Source: a virus
Reading direction: 5' to 3' (one strand)
Virus record (IMG/VR): IMGVR_UViG_3300023174_003073
Span: 106,987 to 170,986 of that record
Length of the DNA stretch: 64,000 nt
Position numbers and translations under genes: made by a program. The notes below the pieces were generated by a model. The model was given only the letters and a program-made list of their open reading frames with translations, had not been told where the DNA came from and ran no database searches. This document shows positions 7,736-52,951 of the stretch, piece after piece. Position 1 is the first letter of the stretch. The number at the start of each line of letters is the position of its first letter.

Positions 7736-8659
7736 TCAACTTGTTAATTCTACTAATGTAGCCGCAAGACTAATCTCAGGGATTCCAACTAGTGATAAGT
7801 TTGCTAGACCATTACGAATGATAATAATACTAGCATCACGTTTTTCTGCACTACTACCCCACAAATCTAAGTTGTTATACATCCAAACATAGATATCTTC
7901 TAAACGACTTGGATACAAACTCAAATGCTGTAGTAATTGCTGACGACCTTCTAAAATCTTTCCGGCTTTAAACAATTCAGTTGCTTCAAACAATAGACCA
8001 TCTTCACTGTTGCTTGCGTCTACAGGTGGCAATAATTTGCCTGTACTACTATTTACTTGAATCTGATTCAAGCATTTACGTAAGTCTGGATATGTAGCAC
8101 TTACATAGCTATCTAATATCTCTAATTCAAAATCAATGTTTTCAGCCACTAGAACAGTTGCGGCACGTGCTGTAAATTCTGTCTTGTCTGTTTTAGTTAT
8201 TCTAAATTCATGGCATCTGCTTTTAAGTGCAGGGATAATTCTATGTTCATAGTTGCAAGTTAGAATAAATCGTGCAGTCATATGATATGCTTCCATATCA
8301 TTACGCAATGCTGCCTGACCTGCTGGTGTTAGATAATCAGCTTCATCTAACAAAACAACTTTAAACTTACCAAAGGGCATTGTTTGTACAAAGCCAATGA
8401 TTTTGTTTCGTACTACATCAACACTATTTTCACGTGACGCATTGATTTCCAATACATCATATTCTTCTACACCTAATTCTTGTATAAGAACTTTTGCAAG
8501 CGTAGTCTTACCTGTACCGGGCTCACCACTCAATAATAGATGCGGAATGCTTTCATTTGCAATCCAACCAGTAACTTGCTCTTTCTGTCTATCGTCAACA
8601 AAGACATAATCATTTACAGAATGAGGTCTGTAAGCCTCTACCCAGAGTTGGTTTTTCAT
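7736..8659 (-). CDS. gp44: Sliding clamp loader large subunit (gp44)
   Basis: 307 residues (T4 gp44 is 319). An RFC-type AAA+ ATPase that, with gp62, loads the gp45 clamp at primer ends. Visible motifs are the N-terminal WVEAYRP box, Walker A GEPGTGKT 45-52, Walker B LLDEAD 103-108, and the SRC arginine-finger motif at 147-149 (ALKSRCHEF). A C-terminal helical collar follows. The start overlaps the stop of the 110-residue gene by 4 bases (ATGA). It is part of the early block with the GroES-like gene. Confidence 0.92.
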   Translation of the reverse strand: MKNQLWVEAYRPHSVNDYVFVDDRQKEQVTGWIANESIPHLLLSGEPGTGKTTLAKVLIQELGVEEYDVLEINASRENSVDVVRNKIIGFVQTMPFGKFKVVLLDEADYLTPAGQAALRNDMEAYHMTARFILTCNYEHRIIPALKSRCHEFRITKTDKTEFTARAATVLVAENIDFELEILDSYVSATYPDLRKCLNQIQVNSSTGKLLPPVDASNSEDGLLFEATELFKAGKILEGRQQLLQHLSLYPSRLEDIYVWMYNNLDLWGSSAEKRDASIIIIRNGLANLSLVGIPEISLAATLVELTS

Positions 8660-8990: not shown

Positions 8991-9359
8991 TTATCCTTTA
9001 TCACCAAATGTTAAATCATTGACGGGTTCGTCAGATATGAGTAGTATATCATTTTCATCAACTCTACGCAATGTCTTTTCGCCCGTTTCATCTTCAACAT
9101 CGATGCCACGTGTCCATCTTCCATGTGCAATGCAAATCCATTTGCCCACTTTGATTTCATCGTCTTGGAATTGGTCACCCAGTGCATATACTTGTGCCCA
9201 TCGTGGTCTGATACCATTATCTTTACGATTGTCTGATGGGATGATAATACCACCATAACTAATACGTTCATCAAATTCCATATCACTTACAATGATATGT
9301 TTACCAATTGGTTTAAAATTTTCTTTCTTAAACTTATGTGGTTCAAATGCTAACTTCAT
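8991..9359 (-). CDS. GroES/gp31-like co-chaperonin
   Basis: 122 residues (T4 gp31 is 111, GroES 97). The Cpn10 layout is visible: KPIGKHIIVSDM at the N-terminus, a mobile-loop region (SYGGIIIPSDNRKD, about 33-46) that would contact GroEL, a VYALGDQFQDDEIKVGKWICIAHG core, and the closing strand NDILLISDE. T4 gp31 substitutes for GroES in folding the major capsid protein, and a similar role is likely here. The start ATG overlaps the stop of the preceding gene (ATGA type). DnaJ and ClpA homologues elsewhere in the window suggest a phage protein-quality-control set. Confidence 0.75.
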   Translation of the reverse strand: MKLAFEPHKFKKENFKPIGKHIIVSDMEFDERISYGGIIIPSDNRKDNGIRPRWAQVYALGDQFQDDEIKVGKWICIAHGRWTRGIDVEDETGEKTLRRVDENDILLISDEPVNDLTFGDKG

Positions 9360-9724
9360 TTCTTTGCTTTCGGTTTTGTAACTTCAACTTCTTCAACTTC
9401 TTCGTAGTCATCAAATTCTTCAAACGCTTGTTGTTCTTCAGGATTTAATTCTGTTGCAATTACTTCTGCAATTACATCCGGAGTAGGCGGAACCGTAATA
9501 GGCTCAACTACTTCATGTTCATCTTCCTGTATATTAGAAGGAAGTCTCACTGTTTTCTTATACAAACTGTTAACCCGTTGTGTATTTTCCTGCACTACAC
9601 GCCCGTGACTATCAATCACATCGCCCCTAGCATTAACATTCATGTTTCCTACAGCACGTACTTTTTCATTCTGTGCTACTAATACAGACATATCAATTGT
9701 TTTTCCTAATGCCGATCTATGCAT
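9356..9724 (-). CDS. Conserved phage protein, acidic C-terminus
   Basis: 122 residues. The N-terminus has a compact conserved-looking block (RSALGKTIDM, QNEKVRAVGNMNVNARGD), followed by a Pro/Val linker and a strongly acidic tail ending in lysines. I recall this N-terminal block from many T4-like phage genomes beside the co-chaperonin or replication genes, without an assigned function. The start has AAGGAG 6 bases upstream. It overlaps the GroES-like start by 4 bases. Confidence 0.65.
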   Translation of the reverse strand: MHRSALGKTIDMSVLVAQNEKVRAVGNMNVNARGDVIDSHGRVVQENTQRVNSLYKKTVRLPSNIQEDEHEVVEPITVPPTPDVIAEVIATELNPEEQQAFEEFDDYEEVEEVEVTKPKAKK

Positions 9725-9734
9725 AATTTTCTCC

Positions 9735-10241
9735 TTATTTTAAGAACTCGTCAATAGACAAGTCATAATGCAAACTATTTATACGGTGTATACCCAGCAA
9801 AAACAGAACATAGCTGGATACACTACTACCACGACCTACTCCCCAAACTACTTTGTTTGCTCTCATAGTGTCAACTAGGTATTTACAATAACGCAATAAT
9901 TGGAACAAATCTCGTTGCTGATATAATATCAATTCTTGCCCAACTCTTTGCAATTCTGCATTAGTTTGACAAAGGTCTAGTACATATTTGGCTATATCTA
10001 ATTGATTGTATTCTTCTGGTATAAACCAATTACGTTGTAGTTGTTTGTCAAACTCTTCCTTCGACAGAGTTTGTTGTTTGTATTTTTTGAATGTGGGTAT
10101 ATTTTCTATCTCTAAATCTTTATCAAAATAGATATCATCAGAGACTAATGCATTTTTGATTTTTATGTTTGGGTCAGATAAAAAGGCACTACATAAGTCC
10201 ATTTCATCTAATATTTGTTGACCGTATATATCAATTTGCAT
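9735..10241 (-). CDS. DnaE-like polymerase fragment, N-terminal palm half
   Basis: 168 residues. The C-terminal 60 match the family-C (DnaE/PolIII alpha) palm entry: DLFQLLRYCKYLVDTMR, then W133-G-V-G-R-G-S-S140, YVLFLLGIHRINSLHYDL and DEFLK. In DnaE this is the GPGRGS...ALGITDLDPLE.DLLFERFLNP block. The N-terminal part resembles the PHP-to-palm linker (DKDLEIENIPTFKKY). The chain stops where DnaE would continue into the catalytic PDxDxDF motif, and the gene at 49628-50221 starts with exactly that motif. The fragment alone lacks all three catalytic aspartates. It heads the early operon with groES and gp44. Confidence 0.7.
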   Translation of the reverse strand: MQIDIYGQQILDEMDLCSAFLSDPNIKIKNALVSDDIYFDKDLEIENIPTFKKYKQQTLSKEEFDKQLQRNWFIPEEYNQLDIAKYVLDLCQTNAELQRVGQELILYQQRDLFQLLRYCKYLVDTMRANKVVWGVGRGSSVSSYVLFLLGIHRINSLHYDLSIDEFLK

Positions 10242-45495: not shown

Positions 45496-45504
45496 GTATT
45501 TATC
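45496..45504 (-). promoter_or_regulatory. Late promoter (GATAAATAC)
   Basis: Minus-strand GATAAATAC at the end of the helicase gene, 21 bases before the ATG at 45475. Confidence 0.7.
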
Positions 45505-46915
45505 AATTTTTGAGATTGTTAAGTAGTGCTTTTAATTTGCTACCCTGCACGTCTGCAACTACCCGTTTAGTTTCTTCAGGAATATAGATATTTTCCCCAA
45601 CCACAGTTGACTGGGGCTTTAATTGATTCATAATCTCGTTAGGACTAGGGGCAGGACGATACTTCATTTGCTGATCTCCATGACCCTCAGGATCCTCGTC
45701 TGTAATTCTCATGGTTTCTACGTTATATTCCAAGTCAATTTTTTGACCTACACCAGTCGAACTACGACTTTTCATACACTGAATCTGATACTTACCGCGT
45801 TCACGCATACTACGACTTGTAAAGATACCAAATACGTTATCTGCTGTATTAATCTTACTGATACCACCTGCAATATGACTATGGTCAAACTCAATTTCTT
45901 CAACTGCACTACGATTCAACTGACTTGCAGTAACCATTAATACACCTAATTCTTTGGATAGGTTACGCAATTCTTCTGACACATACTTGTCTTTAATAAA
46001 CTGGTCGTTAGGATTTACTTTAACAGACACGGGCATTACTAGATCCAGATAGTCAATCATCACAAAGTCAACTTTGATACCTGTTTGTATCTGTACTTCT
46101 TTCAAGTAACTACGAATATCGTTAACATTGCTTTGTGCGGGCAATCCTTTAACACGATAGTCACCTGATTTCTTACCTGCTAATTTAACTTTAAGTTCAG
46201 TATTATCAATATCTTTACGAATGTCTCTGGTACTCATCATAGTCAACATCGCATCAGTTCTAAGTGAAGTCAATTCTTCTGAGAGTTCCAATGAGATATA
46301 AACGCCACTCAATCCCATACCTAACCAATTCAGTGCAATGTTCATCATCACCAATGATTTACCTGAACCTGAACCACCTGCAAAGATATTCAATTCACCT
46401 CGACTAAAGCCACCATACAACAACCTATCAAGTTGCGGCCAGCCTGTGCTTTGTTGTCCACCTGCATTAAAGTATTTGTGCAATCGTCCTTTAGGGTCAG
46501 CAAAGTAATCTGTACCCATATCTCGTTGTAAACTAATCTGCACTGCTTCTTTGATTAGTTTCTCGACGGGACCAAAGTCACCCTTCTCTAACAAATCGGC
46601 TGCTTTGAGGATTGCTCGTTCTAATTCTTGTCTTTTAGTAAATGATTCAAATTCTTCTAAGAACCATTCAGTATGTTTATCACCGAAATCTTCAACCATA
46701 TCAAGTTGAACACCTGTGGTCGCTACAATTTGTTTACTATCGGGTAGTAAACTATACTTCTCACTATATTCTATCATAAACTCTGCAACAGGTCTTAAAG
46801 ACTTGTCAAAGTTCTGAGCATTCATAATATTCATTACCCTTGTATACAATTCTGCATTTGTCAGAATCATTTGTAAAAAGAGTTTTTGAATCTCTACGTT
46901 ATATTCCTTTTGCAA
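45503..46915 (-). CDS. gp41: Replicative DNA helicase (gp41/DnaB-type)
   Basis: 470 residues (T4 gp41 is 475). An N-terminal helical hairpin domain (1-140) is followed by a RecA-like motor: LDRLLYGGFSRGELNIFAG, Walker A GGSGSGKS 180-187, GVYISLELSEE, Walker B VDFVMIDYLDLVM, and the VTASQLNRSAVEE and AGGISKINTADNV blocks. It unwinds DNA 5' to 3' at the fork and couples to the gp61 primase encoded two genes upstream. A one-base gap separates it from the cupin gene. Confidence 0.94.
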   Translation of the reverse strand: MQKEYNVEIQKLFLQMILTNAELYTRVMNIMNAQNFDKSLRPVAEFMIEYSEKYSLLPDSKQIVATTGVQLDMVEDFGDKHTEWFLEEFESFTKRQELERAILKAADLLEKGDFGPVEKLIKEAVQISLQRDMGTDYFADPKGRLHKYFNAGGQQSTGWPQLDRLLYGGFSRGELNIFAGGSGSGKSLVMMNIALNWLGMGLSGVYISLELSEELTSLRTDAMLTMMSTRDIRKDIDNTELKVKLAGKKSGDYRVKGLPAQSNVNDIRSYLKEVQIQTGIKVDFVMIDYLDLVMPVSVKVNPNDQFIKDKYVSEELRNLSKELGVLMVTASQLNRSAVEEIEFDHSHIAGGISKINTADNVFGIFTSRSMRERGKYQIQCMKSRSSTGVGQKIDLEYNVETMRITDEDPEGHGDQQMKYRPAPSPNEIMNQLKPQSTVVGENIYIPEETKRVVADVQGSKLKALLNNLKN

Positions 46916-46916
46916 T

Positions 46917-47417
46917 TCAATTTCCTTTGTTTATTGATGTGTCATATTGACCATCAATCAAAATATATAACATACGACATACATTTGATGACCTATTAGC
47001 CCATGCATGGTTAGTACCTCGTTGTATTACAACTGCCCCTTTTTGTAAATCAACTTCTGAATCATCTAATACTAATGTAATCTCTCCTTCCATCACGATA
47101 CTATAATCAATTGATTCAGTGACATGCATTAAGGGATGTGGTTTTAAAAATCTAAATTCTGTAGTCTCAGGTGGAATATCAGCAAATCTAATTCTTGTAC
47201 CATTTTTTGGAGGTTCAAATTTTAATGGGCTGTTTGTAGGATCAATCCTATTATCAATTATTGCTGGCATTTCTGTAGTATTCCATACTTCGTGTAATAC
47301 AAGACCTGGAATAATATCTAAATCAAAAACATTAGGCAAAGTTCCATTTGAAGTTATTATTGATTTACCCTCATTGTTGTGACCTGTAACCACACGATGA
47401 ATCTTGGGATAAGTCAT
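46917..47417 (-). CDS. Cupin-domain protein
   Basis: 166 residues. A cupin_2 barrel at about 85-160: HPLMHVTESIDYSIVMEGEI, LVLDDSEVDLQKGAVVIQRG, TNHAWANRSSNVCRMLYILI. It resembles common bacterial cupins with the SIDYxIVxEGE and RGTNHAWxNR blocks. The first cupin motif has no HxH pair, so metal binding and catalysis are uncertain; a ligand-binding role is possible. It is inserted between primase and helicase with 4-base and 1-base junctions, so it is expressed with the replisome. Unusual for a T4-like replication operon. Confidence 0.75.
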   Translation of the reverse strand: MTYPKIHRVVTGHNNEGKSIITSNGTLPNVFDLDIIPGLVLHEVWNTTEMPAIIDNRIDPTNSPLKFEPPKNGTRIRFADIPPETTEFRFLKPHPLMHVTESIDYSIVMEGEITLVLDDSEVDLQKGAVVIQRGTNHAWANRSSNVCRMLYILIDGQYDTSINKGN

Positions 47418-48391
47418 TCTATGGCCTTTAATAATTTACGCTTTTGCATTTCTATTTTAATTTTACTCATTGTAGCATTTTCTAATATACTTAGTAAAGT
47501 AGGCAATCTACCATATTTTACCACTGCATCATTCACATCTTTAACTGAGCTATCCCAATCAGGTAAACTAACACTATACCCAAACTCTAATGCTTTGTCA
47601 CATATCTCCAGACCAGTCGCATCACGATCGGGTACAACGATTATTTTCTTATTCAATTGTGCTAGCAATTGTGCTTGTTCTGTTGATATTGTATTATGTG
47701 TTAAAGCACAACCATGAATGCTCAATGCATCAAAAATACCTTCAACTACGATACATGCTTGCCATTCTGGTTTCTGAAAATCATATCCAAATACATATCC
47801 TGCTTCTTGGTCATTGATATACTTAGGAATTCTGTTATCTAAAAATCTGCTCGTATGACCTACAGTTTTTCCCTTATATGTATAGGGGATAACAATTCGA
47901 TTTGATTGTCTGCCCTTATCATTGGGTGTGACTACAAAGGGTAATATTGTTTTATCAATCTTTCTGTTTTGTAGATATTGTAAGAATACACTATGATTAG
48001 GATTATTGCTATCTAACAATTCACCGTCAGGTAATTCTCTTGCTTTAAACGAAATTGTTTCACGAACCTTTTTGGTATATGTAAAATCTAAAAAGTCTTT
48101 GTTGCGTAAACTTTCAAGACTCCAAAGTTGAATCTGTTCTATGTCAACACCACACCACAATAAGAATTGTTTTGCTCTTTCAGAAATAACTCTTCCCAAA
48201 GTAAAACTGCAACTATAGCTACAGTTAAAGCAATGGTATACCCAGTTAGTTTGTCCATCAAACTTAATACCACCTCTGAATCTATCATCAGGCCTATGCC
48301 CACGATGGGAACAACAAATTGCGTTGAAACTAGTCCAACCACCACTTGTTTGTTTCTTACGACCGGGTATTATTGAGAGTATATCAAACAT
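47414..48391 (-). CDS. gp61: DNA primase (gp61-type)
   Basis: 325 residues (T4 gp61 is 342). An N-terminal zinc ribbon with Cys26, Cys27, His29 and Cys54, Cys57 (CCSHRGHRP ... YHCFNCSYSC) precedes a TOPRIM-type catalytic region (CIVVEGIFDALS, VVPDRDATGLEI). It makes RNA primers at the fork with gp41. The early promoter -10 ends 7 bases before the ATG, with no Shine-Dalgarno, so it is predicted leaderless. It heads the primase-cupin-helicase operon. Confidence 0.92.
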   Translation of the reverse strand: MFDILSIIPGRKKQTSGGWTSFNAICCSHRGHRPDDRFRGGIKFDGQTNWVYHCFNCSYSCSFTLGRVISERAKQFLLWCGVDIEQIQLWSLESLRNKDFLDFTYTKKVRETISFKARELPDGELLDSNNPNHSVFLQYLQNRKIDKTILPFVVTPNDKGRQSNRIVIPYTYKGKTVGHTSRFLDNRIPKYINDQEAGYVFGYDFQKPEWQACIVVEGIFDALSIHGCALTHNTISTEQAQLLAQLNKKIIVVPDRDATGLEICDKALEFGYSVSLPDWDSSVKDVNDAVVKYGRLPTLLSILENATMSKIKIEMQKRKLLKAIE

Positions 48392-49219: not shown

Positions 49220-49248
49220 AAATTTAAATACATTGGGCAACCAAATAT

Positions 49249-49256
49249 GATAAATA
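49249..49256 (+). promoter_or_regulatory. Late promoter (GATAAATA), plus strand
   Basis: Plus-strand GATAAATA 20 bases before the ATG at 49277. It lies inside a spurious ATGATAAATAAA reading start, the same artefact as at 62835. Confidence 0.6.
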
Positions 49257-49276
49257 AATCCGAGAACACTAAAATA

Positions 49277-49657
49277 ATGATTCAAAACGAATTCTTCAAC
49301 AAACTAACTAAAAATCACCCCTTCATAACCATTTGTTCCTACGCAGGACAAGATTACGTTGGAATAGTACAAAATCGTGATGAAATAGTCACAACTATCT
49401 ATGATTACGGGGCGATAGTTGATAACATTCTTAGGGAAAAGTTCTTAGAATTAGGTGATACATGGTGGTGGGAAAGTAATCGATTAGTACCCATCAATAT
49501 GTTCTTAAAAGAAGAATGGATCATGTTCAAACCCTATCTTAGAACATTCAATAACAAAAGTCTCACTGTAGTTCATGGCCCGATATGCAGTATATTAGAA
49601 CTGGCCAAAAGAAAATCAAAAAGAAAATCAATTACTCTCGTTAAGAGAATGTCCTAA
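49277..49657 (+). CDS. Conserved hypothetical protein (126 aa)
   Basis: 126 residues from the ATG at 49277; the longer frame from 49247 starts within the late promoter. A small alpha/beta protein with HPFITICSYAGQDYVGIVQN, ELGDTWWWESNRLVPINMFL and a very basic C-terminus (ELAKRKSKRKSITLVKRMS). The 3' end overlaps the convergent DnaE-like gene by 30 bases. Basic tail and late promoter fit a nucleic-acid-linked late factor, but function is unknown. Confidence 0.6.
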   Translation: MIQNEFFNKLTKNHPFITICSYAGQDYVGIVQNRDEIVTTIYDYGAIVDNILREKFLELGDTWWWESNRLVPINMFLKEEWIMFKPYLRTFNNKSLTVVHGPICSILELAKRKSKRKSITLVKRMS

Positions 49658-50221
49658 TTCTTCTAATAAGTTCATATGAACAACTACCAAGTGTGCGTAG
49701 GCAATAGCATGACTTTTCTTAAAGCTATACCCATCAATATTCTTCTCCCACACTGTCTCCGCAACTTCTTTCCAAGATAATCCAATTAAATGCTTTTTAG
49801 CAGGTCGAATGATTGCTAGCATCATAGCAAGTCTCGGTATGCTATTGATAGGTTCTAACATCTTTTGCATACTATAATAATGATTGCTCAAGTGAATTAA
49901 TTGTTCCACGAATGTTTTGTCATTTAGTTTATCCCAATTAGGTTCACGCATCAATTCAATTAGATGCTGTTCGTCACGTACTTTATCATATACATGAACA
50001 TTCAAAAAGTCTAGTTTGAGATACCCTCGTTGGTCTGCTTCACTATAGTCTATATTAGCCATGTCAAGTAATGCATCGTATGGAACTTCTGTTACATAGA
50101 TACCTGTTGCATGTTTACGAATAGGGTTTGCTCTACGCATTGCCGCAGGAACATGAGATATATATTGTAAAATATTATCTCTGTTCCCGAAGTCAATATC
50201 AATATCAGACTGAAACTTCAT
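49628..50221 (-). CDS. DnaE-like polymerase fragment, catalytic palm half
   Basis: 197 residues that read like a condensed family-C polymerase. It opens with DIDIDFGNRDNI (Asp6, Asp8), equivalent to the E. coli DnaE PDFDVDF motif; then KHATGIYVTEVPYDAL (DnaE HAAGVVI), LKLDFLN (Asp71, equivalent to Asp555 in KFDFLG), LAMMLAIIRPAKKHLIG (IALVALYRPGP) and YSFKKSHAIAYAHLVV (GFNKSHAxAYxxxxY). All three catalytic aspartates are apparently present, but spacing between motifs is roughly half that of DnaE. The preceding palm segment is encoded separately at 9735-10241. Early operon; overlaps the sugar reductase gene by 17 bases. Confidence 0.72.
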   Translation of the reverse strand: MKFQSDIDIDFGNRDNILQYISHVPAAMRRANPIRKHATGIYVTEVPYDALLDMANIDYSEADQRGYLKLDFLNVHVYDKVRDEQHLIELMREPNWDKLNDKTFVEQLIHLSNHYYSMQKMLEPINSIPRLAMMLAIIRPAKKHLIGLSWKEVAETVWEKNIDGYSFKKSHAIAYAHLVVVHMNLLEELGHSLNESN

Positions 50222-50999
50222 TATATTTTGGTATGCAAACGTTTAGTGCTGATTCAAGGCTTTGAATTGGAAAAACAGATTCTAGTTTAACAGTGTTTAA
50301 CACACAATTACTACGCGGTGCAACTACTGCTTTTGCAAATTCTTCTTTAGTAAACCATTCTTTCTTTAAACCAAGTTTATCTGCTAACTCTTTTGTTGTC
50401 GCCGAGCCATGATTGCAAACATTATACAATCCTTTTGGTATTGTCTTATAATTGTTTGCAAACTCAACTGCAACTTTAGCAACATCAGGAACATAACTTA
50501 AACTGTTTTCATAATCAATAAGTTTGTCGTAACGTGCTAACTTACTGAACAAATTCTTGGGGTCATGGTCATCGCTGAATGGCATGCGAATACGCAATAG
50601 ATAACTCTTATTCATATAGGGCTCTAATAGTTTTTGTTCTAGTGCTTTACTACCGCTATAGAAACTACCATTATTAAAGTTGAAGTTAGGTTCATCTAAT
50701 TCAGTGTAATGCTTTTCATACCCGGTATATACACAGCCACTGCTGATATGTACAATGGGACATTTCTCAGTTTGTTCTAAGAACAATGGATACAACACAT
50801 TGCCATCAATTGTTTCTTGTTTGTAAATCTCACACGCATCCACGTTAGGCACACCAGTAAACCCGGTAGCATTAATGATTGCTCGTTTGCCAGGTGGAAC
50901 AGGATCAGTATGTCTAATCCATGTGTGTTCTAAATTTTGTGCTTGTAATTCTTTTTGTATCGCTTTACCGATATATCCATGTCCAATAAGTACTATCAT
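50205..50999 (-). CDS. RmlD-like NAD(P)-dependent sugar reductase (SDR)
   Basis: 264 residues, extended short-chain dehydrogenase fold. The nucleotide-binding motif is GHGYIG at 6-11, followed by IINATGFTG, the catalytic Ser in VHISSGCVYTG (86-87) and the YSGSK active site (Tyr114, Lys118). It resembles dTDP-4-dehydrorhamnose reductase and nucleoside-diphosphate-sugar epimerases. With the cytidylyltransferase and RmlB-like genes directly upstream it forms a nucleotide-sugar cassette, perhaps modifying host surface glycans or phage components. Confidence 0.78.
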   Translation of the reverse strand: MIVLIGHGYIGKAIQKELQAQNLEHTWIRHTDPVPPGKRAIINATGFTGVPNVDACEIYKQETIDGNVLYPLFLEQTEKCPIVHISSGCVYTGYEKHYTELDEPNFNFNNGSFYSGSKALEQKLLEPYMNKSYLLRIRMPFSDDHDPKNLFSKLARYDKLIDYENSLSYVPDVAKVAVEFANNYKTIPKGLYNVCNHGSATTKELADKLGLKKEWFTKEEFAKAVVAPRSNCVLNTVKLESVFPIQSLESALNVCIPKYNEVSV

Positions 51000-51484
51000 A
51001 GTTGTCCTTTATATCTTTCTATAATTTCTGGGCTATGCTGAGCCGGTGCATTTGCACTTGTGTCTTTTTGTTTTTCCAATTCATAAACACGCTTACGCAA
51101 TTCACTAGAACTGTAATTGTGTTGTCTCTTATGATAATGCAATTCAATGCTATTGTCAATACAATATTGCTTTCCGGTAAAATCTCTATTGAGATATTCT
51201 TCACTTAGGAAACGAATATTAATAGTTTGGGTCATTAACATTTGTAGTAAATCGTATTCAGTTGAGTATACCAAAATCTCATCAACATACTTACATGCCT
51301 GCAATTGCACATAGCGTTCATATACACTTTGACATGGTTTGTTTTTAACACCCGGTCTATCAATTGTGGGATCAACTTGTAGTGCAACTATTAAATAGTC
51401 GCACAATTCTTTTTCCATCTTTAACATTGTTACATGTCCGGCATGAAACAAATCAAAACTGCTACAATTAAATCCTATTTTCAT
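50996..51484 (-). CDS. Cytidylyltransferase-fold nucleotidyltransferase
   Basis: 162 residues with the HIGH-type motif FDLFHAGHVTML (His14, His17), KNKPCQSVYERYVQLQAC, and the C-terminal SSSELRKRV, as in glycerol-3-phosphate cytidylyltransferases and the RfaE C-terminal domain. It would transfer CMP or AMP to a sugar or polyol phosphate. Overlaps RmlD-like by 4 bases and RmlB-like by 17 bases. The exact substrate cannot be told from sequence. Confidence 0.82.
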   Translation of the reverse strand: MKIGFNCSSFDLFHAGHVTMLKMEKELCDYLIVALQVDPTIDRPGVKNKPCQSVYERYVQLQACKYVDEILVYSTEYDLLQMLMTQTINIRFLSEEYLNRDFTGKQYCIDNSIELHYHKRQHNYSSSELRKRVYELEKQKDTSANAPAQHSPEIIERYKGQL

Positions 51485-52391
51485 TTTTATACCATTCTAT
51501 TGTTTTTTTCAAACCTACACCTAATGAATGTGATACATTCCAATCTGTGTCACGTAATACTAAACTGATATCAGTACTATATCTCATATCATGTCCCGGT
51601 CTATCATTTACGTATGTAATTAAATCAGTACTTGATTCCATCAAATTCAATATTTGTTTAACCAAATCAATGTTTTTGATTTCACAATCGCCACCAATAC
51701 AGTATCTATCTTGCTTGTTGTCTAGCTGAGAAATTTTATAAATTGCATCACATGTATCTTCTACATAAATCCAATCACGAACCTGTAAACCCTGACCATA
51801 CACCGGAATACTTTTATTCTGTAAAATATTAGAGATTGTTTTGGGAATCATCTTTTCAGTGTGTTGATATGGTCCATAGTTATTACTGCTATTAATAATA
51901 ACACCCTTCATACCGTATGTGTTTTTAAACGCGGTTACAAAATGTTCAGCACTTGCCTTACTAGCAGAGTATGGATTATGAGGATCAATTTGTGATTGTT
52001 CATTGAACTTATATGGCTCTGCAACTTCTCCAAATACTTCATCAGTTGAGATATGTATGAACTTAACATTTTTATTACGGAAATAATTCAATAGATTGAT
52101 AGTACCGTGAATGTTTGATTTTACAAAAGGTTGAACATCGTTTATTGAATTGTCTACGTGACTTTCTGCGGCAAAGTGATAAACTTCTGTAAAAGAAAAT
52201 CTATCTAATTCTTTTAAAGAATGTTCGTCTGCAATATCAATAACTGCATAGTTAACTGATAACTTCTTCAATGCTTCTGGATTGCTTGCATAGGTTAATT
52301 TGTCAATGACAAATATATCTTTTTTCTTTTCTAATAAGTATTTGACAAAGTTCAAACCAATGAACCCAGCACCGCCTGTTACTAATATCAT
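51468..52391 (-). CDS. dTDP-glucose 4,6-dehydratase-like enzyme (RmlB family)
   Basis: 307 residues, shorter than E. coli RmlB (361). Rossmann motif GGAGFIG at 6-12, HFAAESHVDNSI, catalytic Thr116-Asp117-Glu118 (HISTDEVFGE) and YSASK with Tyr141 and Lys145. The substrate region RPGHDMRYSTD near the C-terminus is conserved. It would convert an NDP-hexose to the 4-keto-6-deoxy form, which RmlD-like at 50205 could reduce. Overlaps the exonuclease stop by 4 bases. Confidence 0.88.
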   Translation of the reverse strand: MILVTGGAGFIGLNFVKYLLEKKKDIFVIDKLTYASNPEALKKLSVNYAVIDIADEHSLKELDRFSFTEVYHFAAESHVDNSINDVQPFVKSNIHGTINLLNYFRNKNVKFIHISTDEVFGEVAEPYKFNEQSQIDPHNPYSASKASAEHFVTAFKNTYGMKGVIINSSNNYGPYQHTEKMIPKTISNILQNKSIPVYGQGLQVRDWIYVEDTCDAIYKISQLDNKQDRYCIGGDCEIKNIDLVKQILNLMESSTDLITYVNDRPGHDMRYSTDISLVLRDTDWNVSHSLGVGLKKTIEWYKNENRI

Positions 52392-52951
52392 TTTTTACTC
52401 TCCACTAATCCTGCTTTTATTAATTTCATATATGCTTTCTGTACAACAATAGCCTGCCGTTCAGCATCTTCTACTGCCTTGTGACTTGTAACATGTCCAC
52501 CGTCTTTTAGACTTACTCCAGTAATATCAAATAATGTTCGTGTATCTCTTACTGTATAGAAAGCCCAGGGTATTGGATTAGGTCTAGTTGATGTTTGTCT
52601 TAGTGCTGACTCCATGACAACAACGTCAAAAGGTGCACCATGCGACCACACAGCACGACGGTTCCAACAAAACTTATATAGTTTCTCCATACAGTCAGAT
52701 AATGATTCACGTCCAGAATCTCCCATAGCTTCTTCTTGTGCAGCCACACTTTGAGTACTCCACCAACGCAATGTATCTTCATTGATACTACGGTTGTAGA
52801 TTTCAGTTTGATCCTCAATAGTAGGTCGTAGTTCTAATCGTTCTACTACACCAGAGCCTTTAGGATCGAATCGTACAGCACCGATAGTAAGTATAACACA
52901 ATCAGGTGTTGTGTTCAAACTTTCAATGTCAATCATCACATCGTTTGCCAT
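52388..52951 (-). CDS. DexA-like 3'-5' exonuclease
   Basis: 187 residues of the DnaQ-like DEDDh fold. Asp8 and Glu10 in DVMIDIESL, the TIGAVRFDP strand, LRWWSTQSVAAQEEAM (as T4 DexA WWKNQSPEA), a third acid in GAPFDVVVME, and HxAxxDAxxQ in SHKAVEDAERQ. T4 DexA (227 residues) degrades DNA from 3' ends. It lies between the small-protein array and the sugar cassette in the same early operon. Confidence 0.82.
   Translation of the reverse strand: MANDVMIDIESLNTTPDCVILTIGAVRFDPKGSGVVERLELRPTIEDQTEIYNRSINEDTLRWWSTQSVAAQEEAMGDSGRESLSDCMEKLYKFCWNRRAVWSHGAPFDVVVMESALRQTSTRPNPIPWAFYTVRDTRTLFDITGVSLKDGGHVTSHKAVEDAERQAIVVQKAYMKLIKAGLVESKK

Follow-up and report, generated by a model that had tools for sequence, protein, structure and literature searches.

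Two distant phage genes encode abutting halves of a DnaE palm, a probable two-chain core of DNA polymerase III alpha

Introduction

Two short genes on the same strand of a phage DNA, 39.4 kb apart, resemble successive parts of DnaE, the alpha subunit of bacterial DNA polymerase III (Pol III), and raise the question of whether a single polymerase active site can be divided between two separately encoded chains and, if so, what such an enzyme would do. The window analysed here is the final 64 kb of a 170,986-base IMG/VR record that is possibly a fragment. A split minimal Pol III alpha was described in the 'group 2.2' jumbo phages by Iyer et al. 2021 (Viruses 13:63, PMC7824862), and a truncated or single alpha subunit had been noticed in earlier genome papers (PMC5259590, PMC6102473); our literature search found no experimental follow-up on it. 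The split is thus already published and is not new, and the present pair is a new instance of it. To the published view we add the missing thumb and arginine-bearing fingers segment, a breakpoint at a Met with its statistics, the co-occurrence of the halves, the conserved replication cluster that each half has of its own, and rare contigs with a compact one-chain DnaE.

Results

Identity of the two halves

The two genes are as follows.
9735..10241, minus strand: N-half of the split mini Pol III alpha; 168 aa, the N-terminal part of the palm without PHP, GRGS at residues 136-139
49628..50221, minus strand: C-half; 197 aa, with the thumb and part of the fingers missing

The N-half was recognised by sequence comparison, matching Pfam DNA_pol3_alpha (2.4e-8) and PHROG 11127 (3e-41), a family annotated as DNA polymerase, and a PDB profile search with its family returned Pol III alpha chains only. 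The C-half matched PHROG 11778 (1e-54), likewise annotated as DNA polymerase; a Pfam search with it gave nothing significant, and a sequence/profile search of the PDB gave no significant or useful match to a solved DnaE. Its identity as Pol III alpha is read from its motifs and predicted fold. The protein carries the catalytic aspartates D6/D8/D10 and D71, together with K69, KHATG (36-40), RP (139-140) and FKKSH (167-171), and across its family the DnaE motifs missing from the N-half are present in DnaE order: D6-x-D8-x-D10 corresponds to E. coli PDFDVDF (from 400), KHxxG to position 510, K69-x-D71 to KFDF (553), RP to 639 and FK..H to FNKSH (756). Twelve of these residues (D6, D8, D10, H37, G40, K69, D71, R139, P140, K142, F167 and H171) were invariant across 69 C-halves, and GRGS did not vary in 71 aligned N-halves.

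AlphaFold2 models built from the family alignments had mean pLDDT values of 90.9 and 90.1 for the two halves. In Foldseek searches of the PDB, the top seven matches of the C-half model and the top six of the N-half model were all Pol III alpha, with probabilities of 0.63-0.99 for both halves and far lower values for unrelated folds. The E-values were modest because the halves are short; that of the C-half was about 7e-3, without a rival fold.

The original prediction held that the N-half stops at the DnaE segment just before PDxDxDF, that its partner opens with this motif at residue 6, and that the two consequently abut in the parent DnaE. All of this was borne out. With hhalign, the N-half family aligned with residues 323-393 of E. 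coli DnaE (8.5e-7), ending exactly at 393, and the protein itself ends in GVGRGSSVSSYVLFLLGIHRINSLHYDLSIDEFLK; the motif of the C-half corresponds to E. coli DnaE from 400, and its N-terminus is MKFQSDIDIDF, in which five residues precede DIDID and the first motif Asp is residue 6. The features that define family C, a GS motif and three catalytic palm aspartates, were found across the two halves. Both halves derive from DnaE and jointly make up one DnaE palm, and together, but neither alone, they hold a complete, invariant active site.

The breakpoint

The position of the break is nearly fixed. The N-half stops 29 residues after GRGS in 78/80 sequences and 30 residues after it in the other 2/80, while 4-16 residues precede DxDxD in 79 C-halves, exactly five in 61/79, and all 79 have an in-frame stop at most 49 codons upstream. 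We found no extra sequence at either end of the 80 N-halves and 79 C-halves; an intein or intron remnant at the break was ruled out, as the original prediction had claimed, since neither end has room for intein or splicing sequence. A recent gene disruption or an assembly artefact was also ruled out, the same break being shared by 159 IMG/VR sequences and by named phages. A search of related loci for a fused form, which the original prediction had proposed, favoured a genuine split: fused or adjacent halves were found in none of 160 loci, and no partner lay within 3 kb. In more distant relatives the C-half opens with MPDIDIDF or MPDVDIDF, the Met-Pro-Asp of E. coli DnaE, so that the breakpoint matches a Met that DnaE carries there. 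The likeliest origin is a break just before this conserved internal Met, which would have become a start codon. The C-half of Atu_ph07 (L008:5001-5576) has been deposited with a start some 80 bases later than the homologous one, and the annotated protein loses DxDxD.

Parts missing relative to full-length DnaE

Combined, the halves correspond to the palm and part of the fingers and comprise 365 residues, compared with 1160. About 26 residues separate DxDxD from KHxxG in the C-half versus about 105 in E. coli DnaE, and about 25 separate RP from FK..H versus 117; family alignment and this spacing show that the thumb between PDxDxDF and KHAGG is absent, as is the arginine-bearing fingers segment LYQEQ...RRAxGKK between RP and FK..H. 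No Pfam match to PHP, clamp-binding or OB domains was found in either half (168 and 197 aa). What had been called a palm-like factor should read as a thumbless, fingers-truncated palm, alongside an intact family-B polymerase.

These absences bear on the possibility that the pair is a decoy of the host replicase, mimicking host Pol III alpha and capturing host replisome subunits. The ancestry of the pair is that of a host-type enzyme, and its phages own a family-B polymerase, as a decoy would allow; however, the regions through which alpha contacts its partners in the host (PHP, clamp-binding, OB and tau-binding) are precisely those that are missing, and it is the active site that is conserved instead. 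We regard a decoy as extremely improbable.

Distribution and co-occurrence

The split is conserved in hundreds of large-phage contigs. With the halves of RaK2 as queries, 90 phage records matched each half, although other DnaE proteins may account for a few of the weakest matches to the N-half. Among 35 long records, 28 had the C-half and 32 the N-half. The records with one half only numbered ten, all of them IMG/VR contigs without a completeness estimate. Given the usual spacing of about 43 kb, the partner would fall past the contig end in nine of these (narrowly so in G012); in the tenth, G015, this would hold only with a 119-kb spacing such as that in G014, spacings elsewhere ranging from 11 kb to over 100 kb. 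The named phage records that we examined had both halves and a family-B polymerase match in 10/10 cases, and the contig of the window has an intact family-B polymerase of its own at 89147-91855, with SLYP and DTDS motifs. Both halves were thus present wherever a record was long enough to judge, in line with the co-occurrence expected of a two-subunit factor.

The smallest spacing was seen in Slicko01 (OQ508956.1), a complete 141-kb Alishewanella phage with both halves 11 kb apart, which indicates that the split is not confined to genomes over 200 kb. In this phage a clamp loader lies beside the C-half, and the family-B polymerase is in two frames. Prokaryote genomes gave 12 matches in 84,980, each on a contig from a MAG or an uncultured bin; a cellular origin of the family was rejected, these matches probably being mis-binned phage.

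It could be argued that the halves share ancestry only and act separately as independent small proteins, given their separate gene clusters and the confident fold predicted for each alone. Nevertheless, GS and DxDxD are both invariant without having a known use apart from one another, and co-occurrence is complete where it can be tested, making independent action very unlikely.

Some large-phage contigs, among them G006, G025 and LR756508, have a compact DnaE of about 560 aa that is one chain and lacks PHP; at G006:C1:54889-56565 (L187:4890-6566), L040:42-1718 and LR756508.1:47382-49043 (L188) the next gene is a small ORF (94-105 aa). The compact DnaE co-occurs with the split halves in G006, whose DNA polymerase genes are therefore of three kinds, and with the C-half in L040, and it is present without the halves in LR756508. 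The 559-aa protein of G006 was considered as a fused thumbless version and rejected, since its thumb-region and RR segments are still present and it is another gene. In L040, the interval from the compact DnaE to the C-half (2101-2857) encodes a DoxX-like membrane protein and a small, cytochrome c-like protein with the haem-binding motif CxxCH.

Gene neighbourhoods

The halves were predicted to belong to separate gene groupings, and they do sit in two different conserved clusters, the main members of which in the window are listed below.
9356..9724, minus strand: PHROG 14844 gene, 122 aa, directly downstream of the N-half; at 79/80 N-half loci
8991..9359, minus strand: GroES/gp31-like co-chaperonin, neighbour of the N-half; at 78 of 80 N-half loci
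7736..8659, minus strand: clamp loader (T4 gp44-like), neighbour of the N-half; at 69 of 80 N-half loci
49247..49657, plus strand: PHROG 11637 gene, convergent with the C-half gene and overlapping its 3' end; at 78/80 C-half loci
47414..48391, minus strand: DNA primase (gp61-like), conserved neighbour of the C-half
45503..46915, minus strand: DnaB/gp41-like replicative helicase, on the C-half side
52388..52951, minus strand: 3'-5' exonuclease-like protein (PF16473, PHROG 255), near the C-half

A primase lies downstream of the C-half in 65 IMG/VR loci, as many as have 2.5 kb of downstream sequence, and a structural gene lies downstream of the C-half in 72 of 80 IMG/VR loci. The clamp loader, primase and helicase were conserved neighbours in the named phages as well. 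With the N-half near the clamp loader and the C-half near the primase, both halves are inside replication clusters. Directly upstream of the C-half, the window has a sugar-nucleotide cassette (50205-52391, minus strand) with an epimerase, a cytidylyltransferase-like and a GDP-mannose dehydratase-like gene; only 1/80 related loci has this epimerase next to the C-half, and the cassette therefore looks inserted.

Discussion

From homology, active-site conservation, co-occurrence, the fixed breakpoint and the gene neighbourhood, we infer the assembly, activity and auxiliary role of the pair: the two genes probably specify the two chains of a minimal Pol III alpha catalytic core that is held together non-covalently and is auxiliary to the family-B polymerase. 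The original prediction of a polymerase-like factor assembled in trans is well supported, the halves being DnaE-derived, abutting, co-occurring and never fused, with a complete invariant active site; physical assembly and activity are predicted from these features. The Pol beta-like nucleotidyltransferase palm has two signatures, a GS motif and carboxylates. The N-half would contribute the first, which binds triphosphate, and the C-half the three aspartates that bind metal, along with part of the fingers. Because the break parts the GS motif from the aspartates, the active site would exist only with both chains together, and neither chain is expected to be active alone. The chains would most likely assemble without splicing.

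As PHP, thumb, clamp-binding and OB domains and LYQEQ...RRAxGKK are lacking, we expect the assembled enzyme to be either a polymerase that is slow and non-processive or a nucleotidyltransferase. It may assist the intact family-B polymerase of the phage, for example in primer extension or gap filling, with the primase-helicase and clamp-loader complexes, encoded beside the halves, perhaps providing DNA grip and processivity. The loss of the thumb and of the arginine-bearing fingers segment may, to judge from the alignments, preclude ordinary polymerisation. The pair could then assemble without being a polymerase, serving as a nucleotidyltransferase or as a replisome scaffold and thereby modifying or regulating another component, such as the clamp loader or primase. 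Such a role agrees with the intact family-B polymerase already available for replication and with the clamp loader and primase as neighbours; yet the fingers motifs RP and FK..H are invariant or nearly so and would be needless for a bare transferase, and we consider a non-polymerase pair unlikely. It is quite improbable that the split halves are one part of a larger phage polymerase of many subunits, with the lost thumb and fingers functions coming from further small proteins, for which those of PHROG 14844 and PHROG 11637 would be the best candidates; if true, this would be a polymerase built from four or more separate chains.

Read as a two-chain Pol III core, the split halves would be a natural minimal family-C polymerase kept across large phages of many hosts. 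If shown to work, the pair would provide a functional Pol III core of very small size and account for the second, bacterial-type polymerase in phages with a complete family-B enzyme.

With the group 2.2 split Pol III alpha (PMC7824862) the present pair shares stand-alone NTP-binding N and metal-binding C proteins, distantly located genes (39.4 kb apart here) and a classic family-B polymerase alongside. The present halves are about 46% identical or less to those of named phages, and group 2.2 consists of jumbo genomes (over 200 kb); the present record has 170,986 bases and is possibly a fragment. Bacterial DnaE, also of family C, has the palm fold and GRGS, PDxDxDF, KHAGG, KxDF, RP and FNKSH in the same order; the pair differs from it in having two chains and in being without PHP, thumb, the RRAxGKK fingers segment and the C-terminal domains. 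The compact single-chain DnaE is likewise a short family-C core in large phages, but it is one chain that still includes RR and thumb-region segments, and its gene is distinct from those of the halves. In cyanobacteria, DnaE is encoded by two distant genes whose chains are joined by intein halves, with the break in the fingers, whereas the present pair is without intein sequence and its break is in the palm. Family-B polymerases are split between genes in some archaea and T4-like phages. Split RNA polymerase subunits are found in jumbo phages (PMC7824862). These family-B and RNA polymerases belong to other families and have other break sites, but they present the same arrangement that we propose here, a divided core reassembled in trans.
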